A stretch of DNA of 20,738 bases from a virus: positions 1 through 20,738 of the IMG/VR virus record IMGVR_UViG_3300037011_000129; one strand, 5' to 3'. Positions 2,199 through 20,627 of the stretch are shown here, one piece after another; position 1 is the stretch's first letter, and every line of letters starts with the position of its first letter. Made by a program: the position numbers and the translations under genes. Below the pieces are notes generated by a model that made no database searches, was not told the DNA's origin, and was given only the letters and a program-made list of their open reading frames with translations.

Positions 2199-2423
2199 CT
2201 ATTCTACCTTCTTCTTCGACTTTGTGGCAATCAGGCCGTCTTTGCCGAGAGGGGGAGGGGTCGGAGGCTTTCCCTCATAGCCGAAGGGCTTGACCTTGAG
2301 GGACTTCTTCCATTTCCGCTCATCGAAAGCATCCTGATCCTCGCGGCCTTCCGTGAGATTCCGGAGCATATCGTTCACGAGGCTGGCGGGCTTCTTCTTA
2401 CCCTTCCCAGATTCTTCGGCCAA
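2199..2423 (-). CDS. Small basic protein with TTG start
   Basis: The product is 74 aa and unrecognised. The start is set by the ribosome site: GGAGAGGAG, then six bases, then TTG at 2423, inside the last 26 bases of the Zeta-like kinase gene. A longer frame would begin with another TTG at 2471 but has no such site, and the first in-frame ATG (2369) would lose a well-placed start. The protein is lysine-rich and probably partly disordered: KGKKKPASLVNDML near the N-terminus, the acidic helix EGREDQDAFDERKWKK, a proline run (KPPTPPPLG) and a basic end (ATKSKKKVE). It ends at TAG, 4 bases before the next ATG. It may be a small head or DNA-associated protein, or an adaptor for its neighbours; the sequence does not decide. 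Confidence 0.65.
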   Translation of the reverse strand: MAEESGKGKKKPASLVNDMLRNLTEGREDQDAFDERKWKKSLKVKPFGYEGKPPTPPPLGKDGLIATKSKKKVE

Positions 2424-3630
2424 TGGTAGCTCCTCTCCTGACGGCGGGCTTGATCTCCGGGCGTTCGTCAATCGCCTTGAGTGCTCTCTTGTGAATTTCG
2501 TCCACGTTCCACTTCAAGGATTCTTCAGGTATTCGGTCGAGACGCTTTGGGGTTTTCCCGCTATTGTCGAGAATGAAGAAGTCCGCATCCCCTTGGTGTT
2601 GCTCCATGAAGGCGTGGAAGTTCTTGGCCCCGACAGCGTAGCTCTCCGCGAAGAGTTGGGCATCGACCACGCGGCCCGTTCTTTCGGCCCTCTCAAGAAC
2701 TCCGCGCTTGGGATTTTCCCAAGTCTCCTGTGGATTGGCGTGGACGTAGGCGAAGGTGGGCTTGATCCCGCGCTTCTCGCACTCTTCGAGAAGCCACTTG
2801 TTCTCGGTCCCGTTCTGCTCGCCCGCCGAGTCGTAGATCGCGCCTACTTTCTTGGCGACCTCGGACGCCTCGGACACACTAGAGATGGCGTAGCCCTTCC
2901 CAGCCGCAACGCCGCCCGACGTGACCAGCACCGTGCGCTTCTCGGGGGGAAGTTTCGACACCGTATCGTCGAGGTACTTGAGGAAGGCTTTCTTGGCGAC
3001 GGCGTTGGCCGTCTGGTGGACGGCGACGTTGTAACGAGCGCGGGAATCCTTGATCTCGTCCTCGGACTTTCCTTTGGGGTTGTAGTCCGGAGAGAGGAGC
3101 TTCACGTCGTCCGTGGCGAAGACGTTGGGCGCGTCCCCGATCTCGCCCTTCTTGAGACGGGCAAGGTAGTTGTCCACCACTTCGTCCGGGGAACTCTCGT
3201 AGAGATCGGCGAATCTGGATTCGACCTGCCGTTCGTCCGGGGTGAGGTTGGGAAGACGAGGCACCTTGGGCGGAGGGGGAACCTCGTCTCCGGGGACTCC
3301 CACGCGAGATGCGGAGGTCATCCCGCCGTCTCCCGTCTTGTACGGATTGGGGGTGTGGGGATTGGGAACGTGGGTCAGGGGCTCCCCGTCCTTGGAATGG
3401 GTCGCCGTCCCCGCTCTTGGAGGGGCCTCGGCCCTGCTGGATAGGCCGGGGGGCTCTGCCGCACGCCGGGGCTCGCTGGGCGGGGCTTGCTCTCGTTTGG
3501 CCCTCTGGCGGCTCTCCCACGCAAGCCGGGAGGCTTCGGAGCGATCTCCCGCCTTCTCGATCCAATGAGGGAAGGCACCGACAACGCGGCGATTTCCGAA
3601 CAGGGCTTTGTTCAGTTCGCCTGTCGCCAT
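2398..3630 (-). CDS. Zeta-toxin-like P-loop kinase with long disordered N-terminus
   Basis: The product is 410 aa. ATG at 3630 overlaps the stop of the connector gene (TGATG), so coupling is likely; the frame extends upstream only inside that gene. Residues 28-42 carry the motif RSEASRLAWESR, also found twice in the 595-aa protein at 14325-16112. Residues 45-130 are rich in proline and probably disordered. A P-loop kinase domain follows: beta strand plus Walker A TVLVTSGGVAAGKG (233-246, K245), GAIYDSAG (264-270, D267), and RGVLERAERTGRVVDAQLF (309-327), which matches the arginine-rich lid of Zeta toxins, then FFILDNSG (351-358). Zeta toxins phosphorylate UDP-sugars; some phage members have no known substrate. 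No Epsilon-like antitoxin is next to it. Role in the virion operon is unknown; it could be packaged. Confidence 0.7.
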   Translation of the reverse strand: MATGELNKALFGNRRVVGAFPHWIEKAGDRSEASRLAWESRQRAKREQAPPSEPRRAAEPPGLSSRAEAPPRAGTATHSKDGEPLTHVPNPHTPNPYKTGDGGMTSASRVGVPGDEVPPPPKVPRLPNLTPDERQVESRFADLYESSPDEVVDNYLARLKKGEIGDAPNVFATDDVKLLSPDYNPKGKSEDEIKDSRARYNVAVHQTANAVAKKAFLKYLDDTVSKLPPEKRTVLVTSGGVAAGKGYAISSVSEASEVAKKVGAIYDSAGEQNGTENKWLLEECEKRGIKPTFAYVHANPQETWENPKRGVLERAERTGRVVDAQLFAESYAVGAKNFHAFMEQHQGDADFFILDNSGKTPKRLDRIPEESLKWNVDEIHKRALKAIDERPEIKPAVRRGATIGRRIWEG

Positions 3631-4565
3631 CACGCCGTTCCGATATACATGGCGGGGGTCGCGTACTGCTGGAGGATGTCGTCCACTTCGGCGTTCCCGG
3701 TCGTCCACGAACCCCCGGCGGGTCCGTTGAGGGCTTTCATGGGACTCAGGCTGTAGGAGTACCCCTCGACCGACTCCGTGTTGAGGCGGGTTCCGATCCC
3801 GCCGGGAGACTCCGCCGTGTCGATGTCCCCGATCCTCTGCACCTTGTCACGAATGAGGAGGAGGGCGGCCCTCTGGATTGCGTCGGGCACACGCCCATAT
3901 CGGACAACGGGCACTCCGGAAGAGGGGATGGCGAACTCCGTGGGCTCGCAGAGAATCTTGTGGGGAGGACCCGTCACCACGCCCGTCACGATGAACCCGC
4001 CGGACTTCGGCTCAACTTCCTTTCCGACAAGAACAGAATCCCCTGCGCGGATAGGGAGGCTGGCGGGATCGGAAGCGATCTGGATTTCTGTCGCCCCGCG
4101 AAGTACGGGGGCCATCGTAGTCGTGCGAATGGGCGCATAGTCATCGACCAGCCACCCGAACACTCCGTCCATAACAACGAAGAAGGGGTTCTCGGGGAGC
4201 TTCATGTTTCGAGAGAGCATCATGACGTAGCGCGACTTCACCTGATAGGCGATGTCGGGAAGGTTGAACGTGAAGAGTCCCGGCTTCTCAAGCGCGAGGG
4301 CGAACAGTTGGAGGATGGGGATTTGGTTCGGCATCCGGGCGACACTCGACCGCCCGGAGTCCGTGGGCTGGCGGAGGCGAACGGGGAGGAACCATTGATC
4401 GGTCAAGCGATTGATGAGGTGGCACACCTCCGGAATGAGGAGACGGAGCCTGTCGTCGGGGATACAGAACTCTCCCCCGCCATCGGGAATTCCAGCGCAC
4501 CTGACCTGTTCGATGGTCACGTACCGGAAAACCGTGTGTAGGCCGTTCGCCAATCCAGCAGGCAT
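3630..4565 (-). CDS. Head-tail connector/adaptor protein with central insertion
   Basis: The product is 311 aa. ATG at 4565 has GGGG six bases upstream and begins 9 bases after the previous stop. The N-terminal part (IPDDRLRLLIPEVCHLINRL, then DQWFLPVRL, about 35-64) and the C-terminal part (PDAIQRAALLLIRDKVQRIGD, then IGTRLNTESVEGYSYSLSP, about 227-275) together match the helical adaptor proteins that dock under the portal (HK97 gp6 / SPP1 gp15 group, Phage_connect families). Those are usually 100-200 aa; here about residues 140-220 form an extra, probably beta-rich segment (TEIQIASDPASLPIRAGDSV, FIVTGVVTGPPHKILCEP) placed between the two halves. The neighbours, capsid upstream and closure/completion genes downstream, support a head-tail joining role. 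The assignment rests on pattern recognition, not on a search. Confidence 0.6.
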   Translation of the reverse strand: MPAGLANGLHTVFRYVTIEQVRCAGIPDGGGEFCIPDDRLRLLIPEVCHLINRLTDQWFLPVRLRQPTDSGRSSVARMPNQIPILQLFALALEKPGLFTFNLPDIAYQVKSRYVMMLSRNMKLPENPFFVVMDGVFGWLVDDYAPIRTTTMAPVLRGATEIQIASDPASLPIRAGDSVLVGKEVEPKSGGFIVTGVVTGPPHKILCEPTEFAIPSSGVPVVRYGRVPDAIQRAALLLIRDKVQRIGDIDTAESPGGIGTRLNTESVEGYSYSLSPMKALNGPAGGSWTTGNAEVDDILQQYATPAMYIGTA

Positions 4566-5004: not shown

Positions 5005-6387
5005 TTAGACCAAGAGCGTCCGGCGACGGATGTTCTTCGTCTTCACGATGGCGTCCACGTTCTCCACCTGCGCGTCCACCTGATTGTAGACGATGGTCTC
5101 GATCTGGTCCGTGTTCTTGTTGAACTCCGTGAAGATACGGGTTCCATCGAGAATGCCCCAGATGAAGTTCTTGGGGTTCGCCAGCCAGATGAAGGACCCC
5201 TCGAACACCGTGTTGGCCGAGCCGCTCGCCGCGCCCGCCTTCACCACGTCCACCGCCGGGAACGGGTCGATGAAGGGGACGTTCGGCCCGAGCAGGCCGA
5301 GGGTCGAGTACGCCTGCGACGCGCCCGCCACGGGCATGAGACGCAGTTCCGACGCCGCGCCCACCGTGGGCGAGATGAGGAGCAGACGACCTTCGCGGTC
5401 GTCGCGGGCCACGTCGGTCAGGAGCGTCGGGATCGCCGCCTTGAGCGCGGCGTTGATCTGACGCGCCACCTCAACCGCGTTGAGGGTGCCGTGCGTGAGA
5501 ACGATGGTCACGCCCGCGCCGGGGGCTCCGTCCACCTTCAGCTTCACCGTGTCGTTGCTGGAGGTGATGATGAACGGCTGGAACTCGGAACCGAGGAACT
5601 CCGCGCTCGTCGCCGCCGTGATCGTGATCGGGGCGTCGTCGGGGATGAGGGGGATGCGGATCATCGGCGTGCCGAGCGGAGCCATCTCCGCGCCCTGAAG
5701 GGCCGCGTCGCCGAGGATCGTGCCGCGATCCGACACGACATCCGCCCAGTCCGTTGCGATGGAGTCGCCCACCAGCCAGCGGAGACCGGGGTCGTTCTTG
5801 TACTGCTTGGGGATGCGACGCTTCATCTCGGAGAAGATGCCCTTCTGGATCGAGGCACCCTTCACGTCGAGGATGTGCGCCCCTTCGGTCTGGAGGTTCC
5901 AGCCGTTGAGACGGCGCAGGAGGCGGTCGCGGGGGCTCGTGCCGACCGTGGTCACGTCGCCGTTGATGGCGAGGTCTTCCATGTCGGTCGAGATGCGCTC
6001 GACCATCGTGTTCATGATGGTCTGCTCGAACTCGTTCTGCTCGATGTTGCCCTGCAACACCTCGGTCGTGATGTTCCACGCACTGCGGAGCTTCTGCGCC
6101 CGCAGGACGATGCGCTGGAACTTCGCACGGGACAGGTTGCCCGTGTCGGTGGCCTCGTCCACGCTCTCCGTGACGGGCTCGCCGATCCACAGCTTGTCCA
6201 CGTCCATCAGGGGACGGGGCATCCGGATGAACCGGGAGATCGGGAGCAGGACCGAGAACTTCTTGACGAGGGTGACGAACTGGGTCTGCTGAAGCGGGTT
6301 CAGCAACCCGCCCGTGAGAAGGTCGCTCGTGGCGATGGTCTTCTCGATCATCTCTTCGTTGGCATCACGGCTCGCTACAGCGTTCAT
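5005..6387 (-). CDS. Major capsid protein, HK97 fold, with inserted domain
   Basis: The product is 460 aa. ATG at 6387 is preceded by AGGAGG at 9 bases, one of the strongest ribosome sites here. Residues 1-60 resemble an N-terminal arm; LLTGGLLNPLQQTQFVTLVK starts the N-terminal fold. GNLSRAKFQRIVLRAQKLRS (83-102), AWNITTEVL and FEQTIMNTMVERISTDMEDL (120-139) match the E-loop and spine helix of HK97-type capsid proteins; INGD follows. The axial and P-domain end is seen at 395-450 (FEGSFIWLANPKNFIWGILD, then TDQIETIVYNQVDAQVENVD). Between them, about 255-375, is an extra domain like flagellin/hook 'IN' modules (AVEVARQINAALKAAIP, then GRLLLISPTVGAASELRL). It follows the protease/scaffold gene, as usual. 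It forms the icosahedral shell; no N-terminal cleavage site can be set from sequence. Confidence 0.93.
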   Translation of the reverse strand: MNAVASRDANEEMIEKTIATSDLLTGGLLNPLQQTQFVTLVKKFSVLLPISRFIRMPRPLMDVDKLWIGEPVTESVDEATDTGNLSRAKFQRIVLRAQKLRSAWNITTEVLQGNIEQNEFEQTIMNTMVERISTDMEDLAINGDVTTVGTSPRDRLLRRLNGWNLQTEGAHILDVKGASIQKGIFSEMKRRIPKQYKNDPGLRWLVGDSIATDWADVVSDRGTILGDAALQGAEMAPLGTPMIRIPLIPDDAPITITAATSAEFLGSEFQPFIITSSNDTVKLKVDGAPGAGVTIVLTHGTLNAVEVARQINAALKAAIPTLLTDVARDDREGRLLLISPTVGAASELRLMPVAGASQAYSTLGLLGPNVPFIDPFPAVDVVKAGAASGSANTVFEGSFIWLANPKNFIWGILDGTRIFTEFNKNTDQIETIVYNQVDAQVENVDAIVKTKNIRRRTLLV

Positions 6388-7457: not shown

Positions 7458-8135
7458 CTTTCCTCTTCCTCCGAACAAACGCCCGAGGGTCGCAAGTATC
7501 CCCGCGCCCTTTTTCATGTCGTCCTCGTTGACGCCTTGGAGGGCATCCTTCTCGACGCCCTGCCAGCCGTCCTTCTCTGCATCGTCGAGAGCCTTGGAGA
7601 TGGCCTCGACGTATCCCGTCCGGGGATTCGCCGCCTGCTTCTCCCGCGTAGCGGCGATGTGGTCCAGATCGAGATCGTTGATGGTCCGAGCCAGTCCGCT
7701 CGGCGTCATCTCGACCGCCACGGAGTCGCGGTTCTTGAGGTTGAGCTTCCCGCCGATGGAAAGCTGACGTTTGCACTCGCCGCTCGCCACTTCCTTGAAC
7801 AGCTTGCGGGCCTGCGGGAACTCGCCATCGAGTTCGATGGTGGCGAAGAACTTGTTGATCTTCTTGCCATCCTTGCCCACGCTGGTCACGATCTCACCGT
7901 CCACGGTCTTCCCGAACTCGAACGTGGAACGGTGATTCTCCAAGAACGGAACGCCCTTCTTCGAGGCGGTCGCCATCTTGGTGAGCGCGGCGGTGCTCAT
8001 GCGATCACGCTGAAGGTCCAGCCCGTCGTCGCTGGCGACGGCACGGACGTACATCTTCCCGGTCTTCTCGTCCTGCCACGCCTTTTCGCAATCGGCGTCG
8101 AACTCGAACCGGACGGCAGAGAACTTATCGTTCAT
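6426..8135 (-). CDS. Prohead serine protease fused to scaffold (XkdF / S78-type)
   Basis: The product is 569 aa from ATG 8135, which overlaps the portal stop by 11 bases; G-rich sequence (GGGGGGAGCG) precedes it. In-frame GTG/TTG codons just upstream (to 8156) are possible starts without a better site. Residues 20-180 are a prohead-protease domain of the XkdF-like/S78 type: VASDDGLDLQRDRM (33-46), FLENHRSTFEFGKTVDG (64-80, probable catalytic H68), KRQLSIGG (122-129, probable nucleophile S126), and RTINDLDLDHIAATR (150-164, acidic partner D156 or D158). Residues 185-300 are a flexible linker rich in T, P, E. Residues 425-525 are helical with likely coiled coils (SLEKALGGLVEKQTEITKSF; NSELLQKSLEELGS), as in scaffolds. 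It should shape the procapsid and then cleave itself and the capsid arm. It ends with TAG. Confidence 0.85.
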   Translation of the reverse strand: MNDKFSAVRFEFDADCEKAWQDEKTGKMYVRAVASDDGLDLQRDRMSTAALTKMATASKKGVPFLENHRSTFEFGKTVDGEIVTSVGKDGKKINKFFATIELDGEFPQARKLFKEVASGECKRQLSIGGKLNLKNRDSVAVEMTPSGLARTINDLDLDHIAATREKQAANPRTGYVEAISKALDDAEKDGWQGVEKDALQGVNEDDMKKGAGILATLGRLFGGRGKMNKEGTPTEEETPTEMETTPRTPASTTTASPASAEKAVCPAATENKVAVKDCKPQPEKEVMKPEMKARNAGETGVADLVNDIAILLSKYNNPTPDAPLSSGSDEEKEIVNAAYNALWTTRHLLAKASGAALGAGEQMAVSMIAADAPFAPRDLSGASPKGAFSPDKATGDAAMAATAVTDSRRDIQVGGEIKSTTMTAKEALDLTMKKLREAGNLPQVGTNDNFGKSLTPESLEKALGGLVEKQTEITKSFIEVAIEKMAEEQARNSELLQKSLEELGSVTNDSNRRLADLEGRVVRVEKAGGVSQSGPRGTVDSTVKVPSKGRAGTWRGLFDKAAGEATAKY

Positions 8136-10020
8136 CGCTCCCCCCACGACCAACACTGGCTCCCATCATAACAAGACGGCGGGCATCCGCCATAAGTTCT
8201 GTTGCAATTCTGAAAGCACCTTCGGACATCCCTCGGGACCTGCTCTTTGAGGACAACTTGAGCCGGGGGTTTTCCTGCTTCCCGCGAGGTTCGTTGGTGA
8301 AAGCCGTAGGAGGCTCCTCGGGCATGAACGCATCTTCCGGAGCAGAAGGTTCTCCGCCCGCGCTCGGCTCCATCCCCGGCTCGCTCGGCGCACCTTCCTC
8401 GCCCGGCGCACCGCTCGGCATTTCCGGTTTCGGCATCGCCTGTTTTTCGTCGAGGGCGATGGCGAGTGCGAGCCCTGCGGTAAGTTCGGCCATCGCAACG
8501 GACAAAGGCTTGTCCGCGAAGTAAAAGTCCTTGGGGTAAGGGGGCTTCCCAATCTTCTCGCGCATTTCGTTCGGCGTCATAGCACCGAGCGAGGCGTAGA
8601 TTTGATCCATCCGCGCCATGTCGAGGGGATCGGTGAGCGTGAGACGGGCGAACCGGAACTGAACTCGGACTTGCTTCCGGTACTCCTCCATCTCCTCGCG
8701 GTCGTCCGGCGTCTTGGGGTCGTTCCCGAGGAGGGCGGACAGGAGATCGAACACAATGGTCTGGTTGATGATGTATTCCTTGGCGAGACGATCCGGCTCG
8801 AACTCCTGCTCGTTGGTGATCTCGCGGGACACCTGCGAGGATGCCTTGTTGACGTTCTCGGTGGAGAAGAATACCGGGGCCATGCCGAAGATTTCACGAA
8901 CCTCTTCGTCGTTGGCCGTCCGGTAGGTCTGGAAGCTGGCGTCTTCGGTCACGCCCACGGTGAGCGGCTTGAGTTCGATAGCCGTCTTGTTCTGCTGTTG
9001 AAAGCCGACCTTCGTGGGCTCGACCTGAATGACCATCACCCGATGAGCCTGATCTACGCCGCGAGCTTTCCCGCGAACGAAATCCTCGACCTGTTGCATC
9101 GAGTCCTGCGTGAGCCTTCCGCCGGAGACCAGAAGGGCCATGCGGGGCACGGCATCGTTCTCGAAGAAGTTGACGTTTCGGATCGCCGACTGGCGGTTCC
9201 CGGCGATGGCCGTCGAAGCCGGGACGTAGCGCGGAGCCCCGTAGTAGGAATTCGTGGGGTCGTAGATCATGAAGTGGAGAATTTCGGTCGCCCGACTCTC
9301 TGCGGAGAGGGCGTTCTTTCCTTCCGAGAACTCTCCCTTCACGGAGTCCATCCCGCGCTTGTCGCCGAACTCCTTGAAGTACCGCTTCTGGTTTCCGCGA
9401 ATCTGGACGAAGCCGTAAACCGTCTGCTTCCCGCTCTCGTCGCGCATGACCCGCTTCCGCATGGTGGTCGCGGGAACGTGGTAGAGGCGGATAATTTTTC
9501 CGGCGTTGTTCCGAACGACTTCGATGAAACCATTCCCCGTGGATTCCTCGTCGGTCTTCATCAGGTAGCAGAGTTCGGTGAACGGCATCTTCTCGTTGGG
9601 GTAGCTGAACAAAGAGCGGACGATCTCGGTCTGCTCCTCGATGGCTTTCTTTTCCTTGTCCTTGGTCTCCGGCGTGAGGGGGTGGATGGGTTCGATGTTC
9701 CATCCGAGGCCGACCGTATTCCGGGCGTAGGACCGGATGCACCGGGCAAGTCGAGTGTTGATCTTGGGCGTCTGCGCCCAAACGGAGGGGTTGTAGGTTG
9801 GGGCGACGAATTCTCCGGACGCCTGTTGCTCGAACTGGTCGAGTTGGCGAGACTTGGCCTCGCCCTCGTTGCTGTCGTCTTCCGATCCGCGCTTGGAGTT
9901 TGCGGCCTCTACGCGACCGCCGCCCAATAGCGCGACCTTGAGAATCTCGTCCATATCCTCTTTGGTGACACTCCCCTTGAGGAGCGTTTCTCTGACGGTT
10001 CCGTTGAACTCTTCGTTCAC
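8125..10020 (-). CDS. Portal protein
   Basis: The product is 631 aa, starting at GTG 10020, which overlaps the previous stop as GTGA; the frame is open further upstream but that lies inside the preceding gene. The core is a phage portal: TPKINTRLARCIRSYARNTV (84-103), YHVPATTMRKR (180-190), then DPTNSYYGAPRYVPASTAI (254-272), a hallmark of the PBSX/SPP1-like portal group, followed by NFFENDAVPRMALLVSGG (284-301), IFGMAPVFF (377-385) and MTPNEMREKIGKPPY (481-495). The last 100 residues are rich in P, G and E (about 528-590), then basic, probably disordered. The protein forms the dodecameric ring at one head vertex through which terminase pumps DNA and on which the connector docks. It is followed, with overlap, by the protease/scaffold gene, the usual order. 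Confidence 0.92.
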   Translation of the reverse strand: MNEEFNGTVRETLLKGSVTKEDMDEILKVALLGGGRVEAANSKRGSEDDSNEGEAKSRQLDQFEQQASGEFVAPTYNPSVWAQTPKINTRLARCIRSYARNTVGLGWNIEPIHPLTPETKDKEKKAIEEQTEIVRSLFSYPNEKMPFTELCYLMKTDEESTGNGFIEVVRNNAGKIIRLYHVPATTMRKRVMRDESGKQTVYGFVQIRGNQKRYFKEFGDKRGMDSVKGEFSEGKNALSAESRATEILHFMIYDPTNSYYGAPRYVPASTAIAGNRQSAIRNVNFFENDAVPRMALLVSGGRLTQDSMQQVEDFVRGKARGVDQAHRVMVIQVEPTKVGFQQQNKTAIELKPLTVGVTEDASFQTYRTANDEEVREIFGMAPVFFSTENVNKASSQVSREITNEQEFEPDRLAKEYIINQTIVFDLLSALLGNDPKTPDDREEMEEYRKQVRVQFRFARLTLTDPLDMARMDQIYASLGAMTPNEMREKIGKPPYPKDFYFADKPLSVAMAELTAGLALAIALDEKQAMPKPEMPSGAPGEEGAPSEPGMEPSAGGEPSAPEDAFMPEEPPTAFTNEPRGKQENPRLKLSSKSRSRGMSEGAFRIATELMADARRLVMMGASVGRGGSDER

Positions 10021-10367
10021 GGTACACCAATCTCGGCCCAAGTGATCGCAACGGAATGCTTCACGCCACCAGCGATTCCCGTCGTGCGAAAACGAATCCG
10101 TTGAGCGGGCACGAGGTCGATCTTCTCCGGGGAGCGCGAGTTGGGCCACGAGTAAACCTGCCCCGCGAACGCGGCCACCCTGTCGAGTTCGTACACTCGA
10201 TCCCCGTCAACGATTTCCACGAAAAGGGATACCGCGCCTGCGGCATCAGCCGACCACAGAATCGTCCTTGCGGAAAACGGATGGTAGCGTGCGCCCGCTT
10301 CCTTGGTGATGTTGACTCCCGTTTGGAAGTCTCGCTCAACCTGAAGAGTTCCTTCGCTTACGCCCAC
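10017..10367 (-). CDS. Small beta-rich virion-type protein upstream of portal
   Basis: The product is 116 aa, starting at GTG 10367; an in-frame TAG four codons upstream at 10380 limits the choice, and GGATGGGA lies about 6 bases before. An ATG at 10378 is in another frame and stops after six codons. Predicted strands dominate: GTLQVERDFQTGVNITKEAG, ARTILWSADAAGAVSLFVEI, YELDRVAAFAGQVYSW, IDLVPAQRIRFRTTGI, HSVAITWAEIGV. No membrane segment or catalytic motif is seen. It is the first gene after the 79-base gap and is joined to the portal by a GTGA overlap. A decoration or tail-side beta-sandwich protein is possible; I do not recognise the family. Confidence 0.65.
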   Translation of the reverse strand: MGVSEGTLQVERDFQTGVNITKEAGARYHPFSARTILWSADAAGAVSLFVEIVDGDRVYELDRVAAFAGQVYSWPNSRSPEKIDLVPAQRIRFRTTGIAGGVKHSVAITWAEIGVP

Positions 10368-10984: not shown

Positions 10985-11227
10985 TTAGACGTTCACCAAC
11001 GAGTCGATGACCTGCACCCGGCGCGGCAAGGCCGCCACCGCCGTCTGGAGAGCACCGAAGTTCGCCGCCGCGATGATCGCGGCACGGAGTTCCTGACGTT
11101 CTTCGATGAGAGCCATGAGCACGTCACGCAGGTCCCAGATGTCCGAGTTCCCACGGCCCGTCTCGGGACGAATGAAGACGGTCTGCCCGTCTCCAACAAC
11201 TTTCGGATCGCCACCACCCATCGGCAT
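10985..11227 (-). CDS. Small helical hypothetical protein
   Basis: The product is 80 aa from ATG 11227, with AGGAG seven bases upstream, so the start is well supported. It begins with a glycine-rich loop (MPMGGGDPKVVGDGQ), a short strand (TVFIRP) and then a long amphipathic helix (DLRDVLMALIEERQELRAAI, about 32-51) followed by an alanine-rich helix. No Cys, His cluster or membrane segment is seen. It may form an oligomer through the helix. It lies between the HAD phosphatase gene and the BppU-like gene, with short gaps, in one operon. I do not recognise it. Confidence 0.6.
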   Translation of the reverse strand: MPMGGGDPKVVGDGQTVFIRPETGRGNSDIWDLRDVLMALIEERQELRAAIIAAANFGALQTAVAALPRRVQVIDSLVNV

Positions 11228-11241
11228 AGTTCACTCCTTAA

Positions 11242-11871
11242 TCAAGCGGCCTCGGCCCACAAATACGTCCCTTGGAGGCCCAACAGGGCCTTGAGAAAAT
11301 CTCGTCCTTCGTCGGGCCGGACAATTCTATCATCCAGTTCGACACCGTTCTTGAGAATGTCGCCGACAATCGAACTCTTCGAGCCCATCCGCTCAACCAC
11401 GAGACCATTCTCGAAATCGAAAATGGCAATGGGGGCGACTTTCCCTTCGCGGTCGGCAACCATGAGCTTGACGGAAGATTTGGTCTCCCCGTCTATCTTC
11501 CACATCGAGCGGCGGCGGTCGAGTTCGGCGATGGTCTTCTGCCAGTCCCCGTCGAAGGCAACGGCCTTGTCGTCCACGGTTGCGTTGAAGAAAATCTTGC
11601 GCGAGTAGTCCTTGGCGTCAGTATCGGGGTCCTCGTTGATATGATCGAAGGGGATTCCGTGACGCTCCAGAAGATTCCGGGTCTGGGCAAGATCGGAACG
11701 GTGAGTCCAGATGATGATCTTCCATCCGGTACTCTTGAGGTAGATCAGAGCCTCCTTCGCGCCGGGAATGAGATTCTCATTCTCGTCCACGAGAGTCAGG
11801 TCGCAGTCAACCCCGATGACAGGGGCTTCTGCGCCCTGCTTTTCTACCACAACTCGCCGAGTTTTTCCCAT
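11242..11871 (-). CDS. HAD-superfamily phosphatase with C-terminal extension
   Basis: The product is 209 aa. ATG at 11871 lies inside the last 28 bases of the kinase-like gene, so the two are probably translated together; the ribosome site (GAGGGT) is close to ATG and weak. Residues 18-110 carry all HAD motifs: motif I GVDCDLTLVD (20-29; nucleophile D22, D24, T26), motif II IIIWTHRSD (52-60; T56), motif III K92, and motif IV VDDKAVAFDGDW (99-110; D100, D101). There is no large cap, so it should act on an exposed or macromolecular phosphate; this compact 'DDKAV.FDGDW' type is common in phages and bacteria. Residues 125-209 form an extra beta-rich domain ending RDFLKALLGLQGTYLWA. Pairing with a kinase-fold gene suggests linked phosphate chemistry; the substrate is unknown. 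Confidence 0.8.
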   Translation of the reverse strand: MGKTRRVVVEKQGAEAPVIGVDCDLTLVDENENLIPGAKEALIYLKSTGWKIIIWTHRSDLAQTRNLLERHGIPFDHINEDPDTDAKDYSRKIFFNATVDDKAVAFDGDWQKTIAELDRRRSMWKIDGETKSSVKLMVADREGKVAPIAIFDFENGLVVERMGSKSSIVGDILKNGVELDDRIVRPDEGRDFLKALLGLQGTYLWAEAA

Positions 11872-12746
11872 ACCCTCAGACCTTTGAGTTGCCGGATTCT
11901 TGAAATGACTCCGGCCTCTTCGTCGTTCTGGAAATTCCTCCCCCAGAGGAGGTCTTTCACTGCGGCCTCGTCGATGCTCTGGATTTCACCCAGTACGGAG
12001 GGGTGAATGGGAGTCCCTTTGAGATGCTTTCCTGCGCTCGTTCGGAACCACTTCCGGTTGTCGCCCTTCACGAAGGAGTACCCGTTGTCGATGGCGTAGA
12101 CGCGGCGTTCCGCATCCATGATCCAGTTGTTCGAGTGGCGGTCGATCTCGCCCCGGATGAAATCGAAGGCCGCGAGTCTGTGGAGCCAAGGATTCTTCTT
12201 GTCCTTGCGGTAGTCGTATCCCCGGTCGATCCACTGCCACGCGGTCGGCTGGTCGGCCCACGCCTGTAGGCTCCCGTAGCCGATGACGGCGATCTCCCTT
12301 CCGATGGTGGGGGGAGTGAGATCGAACCCGATAAGCTGGTCGAGTTCGTAGGACAACATCTCGCGTTCCGGCCCGGTGATCTTGGTGTCCACGCTCTCGC
12401 AGTACCGCTTGTTCTCAAACTGGAAGTGGACAGTCTTGAGAACAGCCTTCAGCGTGGTCATGATTCCGGACTCGATGCCGTCCTTGAACGTGACCTTGAA
12501 CGGACGGTGGATTCCCTGTCCGATGGATGCAACTTCGGACTCCTCGGAATCCATAAGAGCCCGGCACATGAGATCGCGGGTCTCGGAATCCCCGTGCTTG
12601 CGAGAGAGCGGAGTCCAATCCCCCTCGGCCCCTCGCATCATGTCGAGAAGGCCGAGTGAGAGTTCGGCGGACCCCTTTTCCGGGTGTTCCTCCGGACGGA
12701 GGCCGGAAAAGAGTCTCGCCGCTAGGACGGACTCTCTGGTTTGCAT
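11844..12746 (-). CDS. PI3/PI4-kinase / Fam20C / HipA-like kinase-fold protein
   Basis: The product is 300 aa. ATG at 12746 is chosen because the upstream gene stops 10 bases before and GGGCGG precedes it; the longer open frame lies within that gene. Residues 80-225 show the compact kinase fold shared by PI4K-like, Fam20C-like and HipA-like proteins: FKVTFKDGIESGIMTTLKAV (83-102), EREMLSYELDQLIGFDLTPP (127-146), IGYGSLQAW (155-163), then the catalytic loop FDFIRGEIDRHSNNW (194-208; D202, N206 or N207) and metal-binding VYAIDNGYSF (216-225; D220). The pattern 'E..aY.LD.l.G...vPpT...GSlQ.w...DRH..N...iD.G.sF' is characteristic. The C-terminal 75 residues are helical. It overlaps the HAD phosphatase gene. 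Substrate (protein, lipid or small molecule) is unknown; a kinase inside a structural operon is unusual. Confidence 0.75.
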   Translation of the reverse strand: MQTRESVLAARLFSGLRPEEHPEKGSAELSLGLLDMMRGAEGDWTPLSRKHGDSETRDLMCRALMDSEESEVASIGQGIHRPFKVTFKDGIESGIMTTLKAVLKTVHFQFENKRYCESVDTKITGPEREMLSYELDQLIGFDLTPPTIGREIAVIGYGSLQAWADQPTAWQWIDRGYDYRKDKKNPWLHRLAAFDFIRGEIDRHSNNWIMDAERRVYAIDNGYSFVKGDNRKWFRTSAGKHLKGTPIHPSVLGEIQSIDEAAVKDLLWGRNFQNDEEAGVISRIRQLKGLRVWEKLGELW

Positions 12747-12756
12747 CCGCCCTTTT

Positions 12757-13116
12757 CTAGTCGCCGATGGCGAGGAACCGAATGCGCTGGGACACGCCCT
12801 GCGCTTCGATTTCGAGATCGAGGACTCCGCTCGGCGTCGAGGCCATTTGCACGAGCATGGTCTTGTACGACTTGACGCCGAACGCGCCACCGTCGAACTT
12901 GAGCCTTGCGCCGTCGCCGTCCGCGAGGAGCAGAGCCCACAGGGGGTCCGCGATGGACGCGACGAGGGGCGCGAGATCGACGCTCAGAGGCCCCGGCCCG
13001 AACGTATCGTCGAGCAGAGCCTTGGCGTTCGCGTTGAGGCCCGTGAGGGCGCGACTCAGGGAGATGCCGTCCGAGGTCGAGAGGCCCGCCGTTGCGTTGA
13101 ACGTGAAGTTCGCCAT
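12757..13116 (-). CDS. Hypothetical virion-type protein
   Basis: The product is 119 aa from ATG 13116, preceded by AGGAGG at 8 bases, suggesting high expression. The N-terminus is a strand (MANFTFNATAGLSTSDGISL), followed by helices with small residues (LTGLNANAKALLDDTFGPGP) and VDLAPLVASIADPLWALLL (about 46-64). The second half is beta-rich: ARLKFDGGAFGVKSYKTMLV, VLDLEIEAQGVSQRIRFLAI. No Cys or His and no signal peptide. The strong ribosome site, compact size and place in the virion operon suggest an abundant structural protein such as a head-decoration or fibre protein. The family is not recognised. It ends at TAG, 10 bases before the kinase-like gene. Confidence 0.68.
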   Translation of the reverse strand: MANFTFNATAGLSTSDGISLSRALTGLNANAKALLDDTFGPGPLSVDLAPLVASIADPLWALLLADGDGARLKFDGGAFGVKSYKTMLVQMASTPSGVLDLEIEAQGVSQRIRFLAIGD

Positions 13117-17083: not shown

Positions 17084-17827
17084 TCATCCCTTGATTCGAG
17101 CGGTGATTTTGTCGGCTTCTTCACGAGTAAGAAGCCCGACGCCCACCGCGTTGTTCACGACGAACTTCTTGATGCGGTGAGACTGCACTGCATCAAACTC
17201 TCCGGGGTCGCCATCGGCCCCGGCGATCTGGTCGATATCCAAGAACGCCTCGGCGATGAAATCCGGCGCACCCGAGACGATCTCCTTGATGACTGCAAAC
17301 GTCGGCAGATCGACTTCCTTCCGGACCTTGATCCGATCCCGCTTCTCGGTGATGAGCCGGGACACGTCGCGGAGAGCCGCCGCATTCGAGAGCCAGAACA
17401 TCTTGATCTTCTTGCCCTCTTCCGTGGTCGGCTCTTTCATGGCGCGAGCCTTGGACGTGTAGGAATTGGCGATGCCTTCGGCCTTCCCGATGGCGCGGTT
17501 CATCTTGTGCCACTTGGGGGGTTCGTTCCCGGCGTGATCCGCCTTGGGGGAGTAGAAAAGGAATCCCTTTTGACGCCCGGCTCCGATGGAAGCCTTCTCG
17601 TAGGCGTTCGCCTTCCCCTCAAGAACTTCTCGGCTGAGTTGGGCGGCGACGTTGAAAGCGGCGTTGGCTTCGTCGGTGAACTTCCCGAATTCGTCGCGCC
17701 ACGGATTTCCACGCTCGACGATCTCGGCAGTGTCCTCCGCTTCGGGAACATCAAAGTACGATTCCTTGATGCCGCCGAGAACAGAGGCGAACTTGAGACC
17801 GTAGCGAAGACTTTCTGTGGTCTGCAT
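17084..17827 (-). CDS. Hypothetical protein, first gene after putative promoter
   Basis: The product is 247 aa from ATG 17827; an in-frame TTG directly upstream (17830) is another possible start. No clear ribosome site is visible, unlike most neighbours. GNPWRDEFGKFT (about 40-51) matches the short 'NPwrD..GkFt' element seen near the N-terminus of many phage minor head proteins. The middle is helical and charged (FNVAAQLSREVLEGKANAYE; KMNRAIGKAEGIANSYTSKA), with FLFYSPKADHAG between. The C-terminal third is helical (LPTFAVIKEIVSGAPDFIAE; VVNNAVGVGLLTREEADKIT). No catalytic motif is seen. It is the first gene below a good sigma70-like promoter and ends 10 bases before the next start. Minor head protein is a reasonable guess only. 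Confidence 0.68.
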   Translation of the reverse strand: MQTTESLRYGLKFASVLGGIKESYFDVPEAEDTAEIVERGNPWRDEFGKFTDEANAAFNVAAQLSREVLEGKANAYEKASIGAGRQKGFLFYSPKADHAGNEPPKWHKMNRAIGKAEGIANSYTSKARAMKEPTTEEGKKIKMFWLSNAAALRDVSRLITEKRDRIKVRKEVDLPTFAVIKEIVSGAPDFIAEAFLDIDQIAGADGDPGEFDAVQSHRIKKFVVNNAVGVGLLTREEADKITARIKG

Positions 17828-17853
17828 CAATTCACACAGGGACGAAATCCAAC

Positions 17854-18552: not shown

Positions 18553-18762
18553 CTAATCTATCTCATCCATCATACGATACAGCCATTGCAAAACGAAGCG
18601 GTTTGCGTCGGAAAGAAGTTTCTCTGTTATCGGAAGACCCACGTACCTCTTCTCAAGCTCGTAGGCAAGGTCGTGATAGTAGGGATGGAACTTGTAGGGG
18701 ATGTTAAAAATAGAAATGGATTTAGAGGCCGGGTCATACTGGATGTATTGGGTCGGAGGCAT
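18553..18762 (-). CDS. Small AT-rich, aromatic hypothetical protein
   Basis: The product is 69 aa. Its ATG at 18762 overlaps the terminase stop as TAATG, so translation is probably coupled. It is rich in Tyr, Phe and Pro: QYIQYDPASKSISIFNIPYK at the N-terminus, HPYYHDLAYELEKRYVG, then a helical end (ANRFVLQWLYRMMDEID). By a rough count its DNA is about 45% GC, clearly lower than its neighbours, which suggests later arrival. No motif is recognised. It lies between terminase and the paralogue pair and could be a packaging accessory protein. Confidence 0.62.
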   Translation of the reverse strand: MPPTQYIQYDPASKSISIFNIPYKFHPYYHDLAYELEKRYVGLPITEKLLSDANRFVLQWLYRMMDEID

Positions 18763-20627
18763 TACAACACCACCACCTGCCCGTCACTGGACTTCCGTGG
18801 AATTGATTGGAGCGCATTCCCCGGAACCGTGACTCCCTGAACCGTCACCTGAGATGAAGTCGGAGGGGACGATCCTGCAAACGTGGGCCGGGGCCGCACG
18901 AGAACCTGATCGGGGGCCATCTCGTTCTCTTCCAAGTCCTCTCCGAACTTCTCCTCGAACTGGAAGTGGAGCATCGAGCAGAGCATGGCGTCGGGACCGT
19001 GGTCGTCCTTCTTGACAGGCTTCCCGTACTTATCCTGCCTGTACCTCTTGAGTTGTTCGACGAGTCCGGTGTGGCACGACCGGATAAAGAATCTTTCCTT
19101 GGTCGTGAAGTATTTGGTGCAGTTTCCGATCCCGTAGTCCTTCCACTTGAGGAAGAGGACGCGGTTCATGTCGAACCCGGCCTGCTCCACTTCGAGGTTG
19201 TTGAACGGGTGGCTCGCGTCGGCGTAGACGTGGAACTTGTCCTGCCCGTACTTTTCCATCCACGACATGAGGATTCGGAGGGCTTCGCTCGTGAGCTTCC
19301 CGGTCATGTATTCCGTTTCGAGAATCCCCACGCACTTCTTGGTGGGGGCTTCATCCATGAGTTTCTGTGCGATCCGGAGTTCCGGATTGTAGGACGGGTT
19401 GGGGATTTCGATGAGAGCGGAGAGGACGAGGGCAGTCTGCCCCTCCAGACCCCAGTCGATCCCCACGGATTTCTCGATGATCCGGGCCTTCTCCCCCGGC
19501 CACTCCGGGTCCACGAGACTGTTCTCGATCCAAATCGTGTCGTAGACCGGACGCATCCAGTTGGGACGCTCGTTCTCGTACTCGACAGCGAAGACGTTGG
19601 TCCCCCGGTTCATCTTCTTGGCGATGATGACGTTCTTCCGGGGGAGGAATCCTTGGGAATGACGAGCCTTCCCGTTGCACCCCTTGAAGTGCCAGCCCAT
19701 CTGGACTCCGTTCTCGTCGAAGGTCGGAGCCTTCTCGGTGAGAGGGCATTCGGTTTGGCAGTATTCCAGTGCTTGAGGGTCTTCGGGCGTGGCGGTCTCC
19801 ATCCCCGTATCGCACTTCTCGATGGCGTCGTAAATGTTCCAGTTGAACCGCGTGAATCCGCGCTCCTCCGCGAAGTCCCAAATCTCTTGGAAGAGGCCGA
19901 TGGGATGGTGGAACGTGGACAGGGCGAGGACCATGAAATTCGGTTCCGACATCGCGCCCTGCATGGCCGCAGAGATCATGCGGTCGGTGTTCTCGCCTTC
20001 CTGACACGACTCGTCCACCACGAACCCGGCGTTGTGCTTACCGCGAGCCTGCTTCTCGGACGCGGAGATGATCTTGAGTACAACGCCGTTGGTGAATCGA
20101 GTCTCGGTCTGGAGAGGGTCTCCGTCGATGATGGCGCGGGCGAACTCGGGAAAGCAGTCCCAGAAAGATTTCGTGTAGTGGTATACCTGCTTCGCCTGAT
20201 CCTGCGATCCGGCCATCATGGTGAAGCTCATCTTGTGGTAGACGAGCGAGAGCCAGATGATGATGGACGTGCAGAGGGAGCCTCCCGTTCCACGGCCCTT
20301 CCAGAGAATCGCCTGACAGGTTCTCCGGTAGAACAGATCGCAGATGAACGAGAGCATGGTTGGGGCGAGCTTGAGGGCGATTTTTCGGGCGTCCTTGGCA
20401 AACCACAGTTTCGTTTGAAGGAACTCGGAAAGTTCACGATTCTGCCGGGCGATGAAGCTGGCGTCCGTTTCGACTTCGGATTTCGGACGGAGGAGATCAG
20501 GGAGCCCGTAGGATCGAGGGTCCTCGACTTTGATCCTGCGCTTGATCTCGCTCTCGACGAGGGTGAGATGTTGGAGATCGGAACTGACCTGACGGAAGGC
20601 TTCGCCCTCTTTCTTAGTTCCTCGCAC
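18762..20627 (-). CDS. terL: Terminase large subunit (packaging ATPase and nuclease)
   Basis: The product is 621 aa from GTG 20627. No ribosome site is clear; codons upstream in frame (encoding LVYNNPAYQ) look coding, so the true start may be a little earlier. The ATPase half has an unusual Walker A, LWKGRGTGGS (108-117, K110), with no GK[ST]; the early Lys recalls lambda gpA. Walker B is GFVVDES (201-207, D205, E206) and the coupling motif LALSTF (234-239). Cys at 272, 290, 294 and 317 form a likely zinc-binding insertion before GFLPRKNVIIAKK. The nuclease half has SVGIDWGLEGQTAL (387-400, D391), VYADASHPFNN (467-477, D470) and DDHGPDAM (541-548, D541/D542/D546), the RNase H-like acidic set. 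It cuts concatemers and pumps DNA into the head through the portal. No recognisable small terminase is in the window. Confidence 0.93.
   Translation of the reverse strand: MRGTKKEGEAFRQVSSDLQHLTLVESEIKRRIKVEDPRSYGLPDLLRPKSEVETDASFIARQNRELSEFLQTKLWFAKDARKIALKLAPTMLSFICDLFYRRTCQAILWKGRGTGGSLCTSIIIWLSLVYHKMSFTMMAGSQDQAKQVYHYTKSFWDCFPEFARAIIDGDPLQTETRFTNGVVLKIISASEKQARGKHNAGFVVDESCQEGENTDRMISAAMQGAMSEPNFMVLALSTFHHPIGLFQEIWDFAEERGFTRFNWNIYDAIEKCDTGMETATPEDPQALEYCQTECPLTEKAPTFDENGVQMGWHFKGCNGKARHSQGFLPRKNVIIAKKMNRGTNVFAVEYENERPNWMRPVYDTIWIENSLVDPEWPGEKARIIEKSVGIDWGLEGQTALVLSALIEIPNPSYNPELRIAQKLMDEAPTKKCVGILETEYMTGKLTSEALRILMSWMEKYGQDKFHVYADASHPFNNLEVEQAGFDMNRVLFLKWKDYGIGNCTKYFTTKERFFIRSCHTGLVEQLKRYRQDKYGKPVKKDDHGPDAMLCSMLHFQFEEKFGEDLEENEMAPDQVLVRPRPTFAGSSPPTSSQVTVQGVTVPGNALQSIPRKSSDGQVVVL

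Follow-up and report, generated by a model that had tools for sequence, protein, structure and literature searches.

A putative PI4K/Fam20-type kinase and its small companion, joined to a HAD phosphatase domain in one clade, in the head-gene block of tailed phages

INTRODUCTION

Some eukaryotic viruses are well known to deliver protein kinases with the virion. For temperate phages, MuF toxins have been proposed to be loaded into the head and delivered with the DNA (PMC5576092), and RelA-type Apk toxins occur among the MuF polymorphic toxins (PMC12226406). In the HipT–HipS system, a small partner is able to block a kinase toxin (PMC9325769). Since gp16 of the haloviruses HCTV-6 and HSTV-2 carries the annotation 'phosphatidylinositol kinase', the bare annotation of such a gene is already known. 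In the open papers that we searched, we found none on PI4K/Fam20-type kinases joined to phage portal, MuF or head proteins. Nor did the open literature searched contain a phage system with the kinase–phosphatase pairing described here, in agreement with the initial annotation of the locus, which knew of none.

The DNA analyzed here, referred to as the window, is a 20.7-kb fragment (20,738 nucleotides; IMG/VR record IMGVR_UViG_3300037011_000129) of an uncultured tailed phage. We compared its overlapping kinase-type and HAD-type genes with those of related phages, and propose that they are one variant of a more widespread module.

RESULTS

Two overlapping genes in the head-gene block

The structural genes of the window all lie on the minus strand, in the order terminase large subunit (TerL), about ten small genes, kinase gene, HAD gene, more small genes, portal and major capsid protein (MCP) (Table 1). 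The MCP resembles proteins that are annotated as capsid proteins in Streptomyces phages. ORF coordinates confirmed that the kinase and HAD genes overlap by 28 bases, as the initial annotation had reported, and its description of a coupled arrangement of kinase-type and HAD-type genes among structural genes is supported, both assignments being made by sequence and the pair lying in the head-gene block between TerL and MCP. The catalytic residues that it had listed (D202 and D220 of the kinase; D22, D24 and D100/D101 of the HAD protein) are all present and are invariant in our alignments. Gene overlaps as such are ordinary in the window operon, a further example being found at 17084-17124. A PADLOC search gave no meaningful match, and a search of the window for RNA families found none. 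A zeta-toxin-like gene (2398-3708, minus strand; PF06414, 25.6 bits against a cut-off of 22.3) lies between g20 and g23. It has no match in the five relatives compared while the block is otherwise syntenic, and it is therefore probably a window-specific insertion.

Table 1. Features of the kinase locus and of its surroundings in the window
Feature	Position	Strand	Basis
Terminase large subunit	18762..20627	-	phrog_9 E 8.3e-11
g10, conserved, directly upstream of kinase	12757..13116	-	synteny in relatives
Kinase-fold gene, 300 aa (putative)	12746..11844	-	ORF and PF00454/TIGR03843 matches, seven lineages
K104 codon, candidate ATP-binding lysine (AVLKT)	12435..12437	-	invariant in alignment A3
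E129 codon, candidate helix-C glutamate (PERE)	12360..12362	-	invariant in A3, matched across paralogues
D202 codon, predicted catalytic aspartate in GEIDRHSNNW	12141..12143	-	invariant, all kinases in alignment A5
D220 codon, predicted metal-binding aspartate in YAIDNG(YSF)	12087..12089	-	invariant, all kinases in A5
AAAGG, ribosome-binding-like site for HAD gene, inside kinase gene	11881..11885	-	
Overlap of kinase and partner genes, 28 nt	11844..11871	-	same length in seven lineages
Partner gene, 209 aa: HAD phosphatase domain and C-terminal companion domain	11871..11242	-	
HAD domain, residues 1-130	11482..11871	-	phrog_1238 E 5.8e-18; PDB 2obb (BT0820) E 4.4e-07
Companion domain, residues 131-209, ends GTYLWAE	11242..11481	-	HMM of other kinases' companions
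g13, conserved, directly downstream of partner gene	10985..11227	-	synteny in relatives
Portal protein	8125..10149	-	PF04860 E 2.1e-27
Major capsid protein	5005..6387	-	phrog_1623 E 4e-66

Identity of the kinase

The window kinase matches the PI3/PI4-kinase family PF00454 with E 0.0011 and 19.4 bits, below the curated cut-off of 27.1, and its best curated match, TIGR03843 (SCO1664 family), reaches E 2.3e-11 and 43.5 bits against a cut-off of 172.4. Two kinase paralogues in a relative (G005) are 29-30% identical to it (tblastn E about 1e-23); one of them passes the PF00454 cut-off with 32.5 bits, and the other falls just under it with 26.5. When a profile of all eight kinases was compared to PDB, Fam20B, Fam20C and PI4K2 were among the best solved structures (best E for Fam20B/C, 8.5e-5). 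Because the nearest paralogue passes PF00454, we read the window kinase as a distant PI4K/Fam20-type kinase, with a predicted fold of that type.

The active-site residues are consistent with this reading. A D-x-x-x-x-N catalytic loop, whose N207 is invariant in the window clade (A3), is followed by the metal-binding D, and the Fam20-type pattern DRH...LDNG is found as DRH...IDNG. For the candidate ATP-binding lysine, the register with the AxYKP lysine of the paralogues was set by eye, as the automatic alignment shifts there. No signal peptide is evident by eye in the window kinase; the gene belongs to a phage, whereas Fam20 kinases are disulfide-containing proteins of the eukaryotic secretory pathway. 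Structure prediction, which had been proposed as a check on both folds, gave an AlphaFold model with a pLDDT of 42 for the kinase (six sequences) and one with a pLDDT of 77 for the HAD protein. A tblastn search of cultivated phages with the window kinase gave no match, and the paralogues served as bridges. Two scans of genome collections, with a kinase profile and with a capsid profile, detected no cellular or prophage relatives.

The HAD domain of the partner

HAD superfamily motifs I (DxD), II (Thr), III (Lys) and IV (DD) are all found in the partner protein, as D22/D24 (VDCDLT), T56, K92 and D100/D101 (VDDK); they are invariant in six aligned lineages (alignment A4) and visible in the seventh. 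The spacing of the motifs leaves no room for a large cap. Against the NCBIfam model of BT0820, the domain scores 33.4 bits, below the cut-off of 165. A search of PDB with the predicted model gave no match at E <= 0.001, returning only insignificant hits to thioredoxin-like and other folds, so that the assignment as a HAD domain is based on sequence similarity and motifs.

The pair is conserved at a fixed position

The kinase and HAD genes are adjacent in seven of seven independent lineages (the window; L003-L005; L045/G005; L035/G009; L019/G006; L025 and L033/G007-G008; L074/G028), and in each of them the distance from the HAD start codon to the last base of the kinase stop codon is exactly 28 nt. 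The start codon is ATG in six lineages and GTG in one. An AAAGG- or AAGGG-type site lies at the same distance upstream in five of the seven, in the form AAGGG in four relatives of the window. Relatives keep both the order of genes from TerL to MCP and the neighbors of the pair, g10 and g13, which places the pair in a syntenic slot. These loci were found via the kinase or the HAD gene, and a search with the capsid protein was added as a separate route. Among contigs with a capsid identity of at least 70%, those reaching the slot carry the pair, with the exception of G025; the remaining ones stop short of the slot or do not include it. Contigs with a capsid identity of about 42% (G029-G033) contain neither a kinase nor a HAD gene. 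The same slot and the same 28-nt overlap in seven independent lineages indicate that the pair is core and not a moron.

In the kinase tree, the seven HAD-bearing kinases group with G025 (support 100/99). The HAD gene may have been lost in G025, or G025 may have split off before the HAD gene was gained, and the tree is compatible with either. Collagen-like proteins with GPQ/GPT repeats are encoded between the kinase and portal genes at L003 11389-13098 and G025:92184-94466; they are absent from the window.

A companion domain, and not the phosphatase, is the constant partner

For a leave-group-out test (11,179 background ORFs), we built an HMM exclusively on companions belonging to other phage kinases; it recovered the C-terminal domains of the HAD genes, including that of the window, with E 2e-7 to 6e-5. 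Elsewhere it scored E 4e-9 in L073, 3e-5 and 1e-3 for the pair in L057, and 5e-5 in G025_30k; weaker matches were obtained in L087 (E 0.006), at the syntenic locus of G025 (E 0.029) and in a fused G025 protein (E 0.04). The HMM did not detect companion homology in the small genes that follow the kinases of HCTV-6, L084 and L088.

G025 has the syntenic kinase (39.6% identity), and no HAD of the window family was found in its whole 156 kb. The stop of this kinase overlaps a 108-aa ORF by 14 nt, and the ORF contains NTYLFAEVA, which resembles the GTYLWAE region of the window partner. Most of the other kinases found are likewise followed by small ORFs showing this pattern, and another G025 kinase has a companion domain fused at its own C-terminus. 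Altogether, a companion is found with 15 of the 22 phage kinases examined, fused to a HAD domain in seven and without HAD in eight (the syntenic kinase of G025 included). Next to four kinases (those of HCTV-6, L084, L088 and pMLP1) lies a small gene whose relationship to the companion is unproven, and three kinases, two in G025 and one in L087, have no companion. Adjacency of a partner or other small gene was seen for 18 kinases, in addition to the one fused case. In all loci read, most of which were chosen around kinases, clear companion matches sit only beside or within kinases.

As judged from these matches, the constant partner of the kinase is the C-terminal companion domain of about 80 aa, and not the phosphatase. 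The HAD domain was rejected in that role in view of G025 and of the paralogues. The neighborhood survey suggested by the initial annotation gave a divided answer: the pair is retained in close relatives, but more distant phages have just one of its genes. A phosphatase as constant partner was not borne out, since G025 keeps only the companion half and most other kinases have a companion without HAD. Consequently, the symmetric writer/eraser pair that it had considered is unlikely as the ancestral design; the HAD is missing beside most related kinases.

G025 (L131, L133) contains six kinase-like genes in its single 156-kb contig, four of them in tandem at 26.7-33.8 kb. Two of the tandem kinases lack a companion and have the catalytic loop DGH instead of DRH.

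Related kinases and HAD domains are linked to head proteins

Portal–kinase fusions are encoded in L084-L086 (phrog_18178, E 3e-183). Micromonospora phage pMLP1 encodes a MuF2–kinase fusion (PF06152, E 1.7e-75; PF00454, 29.7 bits, above the cut-off); this gene directly follows an ORF of 536 aa that occupies the place of the portal gene after the terminase, and is itself followed by an 87-aa ORF that overlaps it by 47 nt. The gp16 kinase of HCTV-6/HSTV-2 is located between head and tail completion genes, and the kinases of L087 and L088 between the portal and major head protein genes. Giant proteins (L048 1427-5302, L049 5028-9482) join a MuF-like region, a HAD of the window subfamily and a RelA/SpoT domain. 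That kinase domains related to the window kinase are fused to portal or MuF proteins, and related HADs to MuF, makes the packaging raised by the initial annotation more plausible.

The giant protein of L048 also has three HPRDxxGRF motif repeats together with further domains. In a set of 2261 ORFs, for which shuffling predicts 0.1 occurrences, the motif [HN]P[RW][DSR]..G[KR]F was counted 12 times, in the window (17084-17830, minus strand), in L057 (7321-9162 and 9497-10690), in L048 and in L088. Its carriers are kinase paralogues, MuF-HAD proteins and other phage proteins, and it is possibly a virion-targeting tag. In G005, the terminase is a single open frame of 1384 aa with two in-frame insertions (L059, G005:84749-88900), and the portal frame has one (L060, G005:103203-106331). 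The two insertion starts that were read have Cys first, in the style of inteins; no RNA intron family was found.

DISCUSSION

From the conservation of the pair, its fixed overlap, the companion domain, the gene context and the portal/MuF fusions of relatives, we infer a mechanism that covers the activity, packaging, binding, control and target of the kinase module. The pair would be one variant of a module, encoded among head and portal genes, in which a PI4K/Fam20-type kinase is paired with a small companion of its own. Analogy with Fam20C, HipA and HipT makes a protein the most likely target of the kinase. The kinase would travel with the portal vertex, or be attached close to it, and enter the next host with the DNA. 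In the producing cell, the companion made from the overlapping gene would bind the kinase and control it, in the manner of an immunity protein or antitoxin, and in the window clade the cap-poor HAD on the companion would strip phosphate from the kinase or from its targets. A layout like that of MuF toxins and the HipT–HipS precedent lead us to favor such a kinase effector, linked to the virion and paired with a cognate controller, the phosphatase having been acquired in the window clade; we hold this view tentatively, rating it at somewhat less than an even chance. Several observations do not fit it easily. The window kinase is a stand-alone protein without a MuF or portal domain and is conserved throughout the clade, whereas polymorphic toxins and their immunity proteins usually vary fast. 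Moreover, two kinases in G025 and one in L087 have no companion, no homology to the companion was detected in the small genes of HCTV-6, L084 and L088, several of the companion matches are weak, and structure prediction did not confirm the kinase fold.

The pair could instead serve virion maturation: as the virion is assembled, the kinase would phosphorylate a protein of the capsid, portal or tail, and the HAD would remove or trim the mark. The pair is a core feature, conserved much as portal and terminase are, and this, the position among head genes and the fixed overlap speak for such a role; protein substrates also suit a HAD that lacks a large cap. We nevertheless regard this explanation as unlikely, though a serious one, because a HAD partner is lacking for most related kinases and one close relative has retained the kinase without HAD; a single assembly role is also hard to reconcile with genomes that contain several kinases, as many as six in G025. 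The data are better explained by a kinase that has its own controller, to which a phosphatase was added in the window clade, than by a symmetric writer/eraser.

Alternatively, the companion may tether or activate the kinase in the virion rather than inhibit it, the HAD being a second delivered enzyme. The C-terminal fusion of a companion to a G025 kinase would be unusual for an inhibitor, and HADs of the window subfamily are fused to MuF and RelA/SpoT proteins. However, the companion is usually encoded by a separate downstream gene, as immunity genes are, and we consider an adaptor role doubtful. It is improbable that the pair acts on small molecules, lipids or nucleic acids, with the kinase using a lipid, sugar or nucleoside and the HAD nucleotides or nucleic-acid ends. 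PI4K and Fam20B do use non-protein substrates, the HAD is similar to the phosphatase portion of polynucleotide kinases from phages (phrog_415, E 1.8e-7), and a 515-aa phage protein fuses Nudix, P-loop kinase (AAA_33) and HAD domains (L051 8828-10372); yet lipid- or nucleotide-metabolism genes were not recognized beside the pair, and the module is tied to head proteins. Common as overlaps are in the window operon, a chance proximity of two genes without joint function is hardly credible, given that order and exact overlap are kept in all seven lineages and that the downstream genes of other kinases share the companion domain.

Taking the effector and its controller as our working model, we suggest, still more tentatively, that tailed viruses of bacteria and archaea share an apparently undescribed module, in which a PI4K/Fam20-type kinase linked to the portal, MuF or connector is accompanied by a controlling companion family; it would be delivered by the virion, occur in up to six copies per genome and have gained a phosphatase on its controller in one clade. 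If this is true, these phages phosphorylate proteins of the host or of the virion upon entry and bring along the means to control the kinase, to which one clade has added a phosphatase. The related kinases of the named viruses HSTV-2, HCTV-6 and Micromonospora phage pMLP1 make the idea directly testable.

Among known systems, the SCO1664 family (TIGR03843), which is known as a family of actinobacterial chromosomes and not from phage, differs in that the window kinase scores far under its cut-off (43.5 vs 172.4 bits). The BT0820-family HAD (PDB 2obb) and phrog_1238 share the HAD core and motifs with the partner, but the window protein lies under the NCBIfam cut-off of the former and has the additional C-terminal companion domain. 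The kinases of polyvalent proteins in phages and conjugative elements have likewise been proposed to be delivered with the invading DNA, but belong to a different kinase group that has lost its C-terminal subdomain (PMC5512222); PI4K-type kinases were not found in the passages searched.

HipBST and HipBA (PMC9325769) resemble the window in that a kinase and a small cognate control protein are encoded alongside each other. In contrast, HipS matches the N-terminus of HipA and is encoded upstream, while the window partner lies downstream and in a phage structural context. No match to HipA or Couple_hipA was found in the window proteins, and with the partner downstream, membership in the HipBST-type toxin–antitoxin systems was rejected. 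Hafunaviridae gp16 (HCTV-6, HSTV-2) has a PI4K-type domain in a head–tail block, followed by a small gene that overlaps it by 11 nt, but its N-terminal region differs, the record contains no HAD, and the small gene shows no detectable homology to the companion.

MuF polymorphic toxins differ from the window locus in that the window kinase has no MuF domain and the window partner is conserved and carries a phosphatase; the words 'kinase' and 'phosphatase' do not occur in the main text of the MuF survey (PMC5576092). The likeness lies in the joining of an effector to a head protein whose gene is close to those of portal and terminase, and in the small gene that comes immediately after it. In the window, the kinase gene is likewise near the portal and terminase genes and is directly followed by a small gene with a 28-nt overlap, and in pMLP1 a MuF2 domain and a PI4K-type kinase are joined in one protein.
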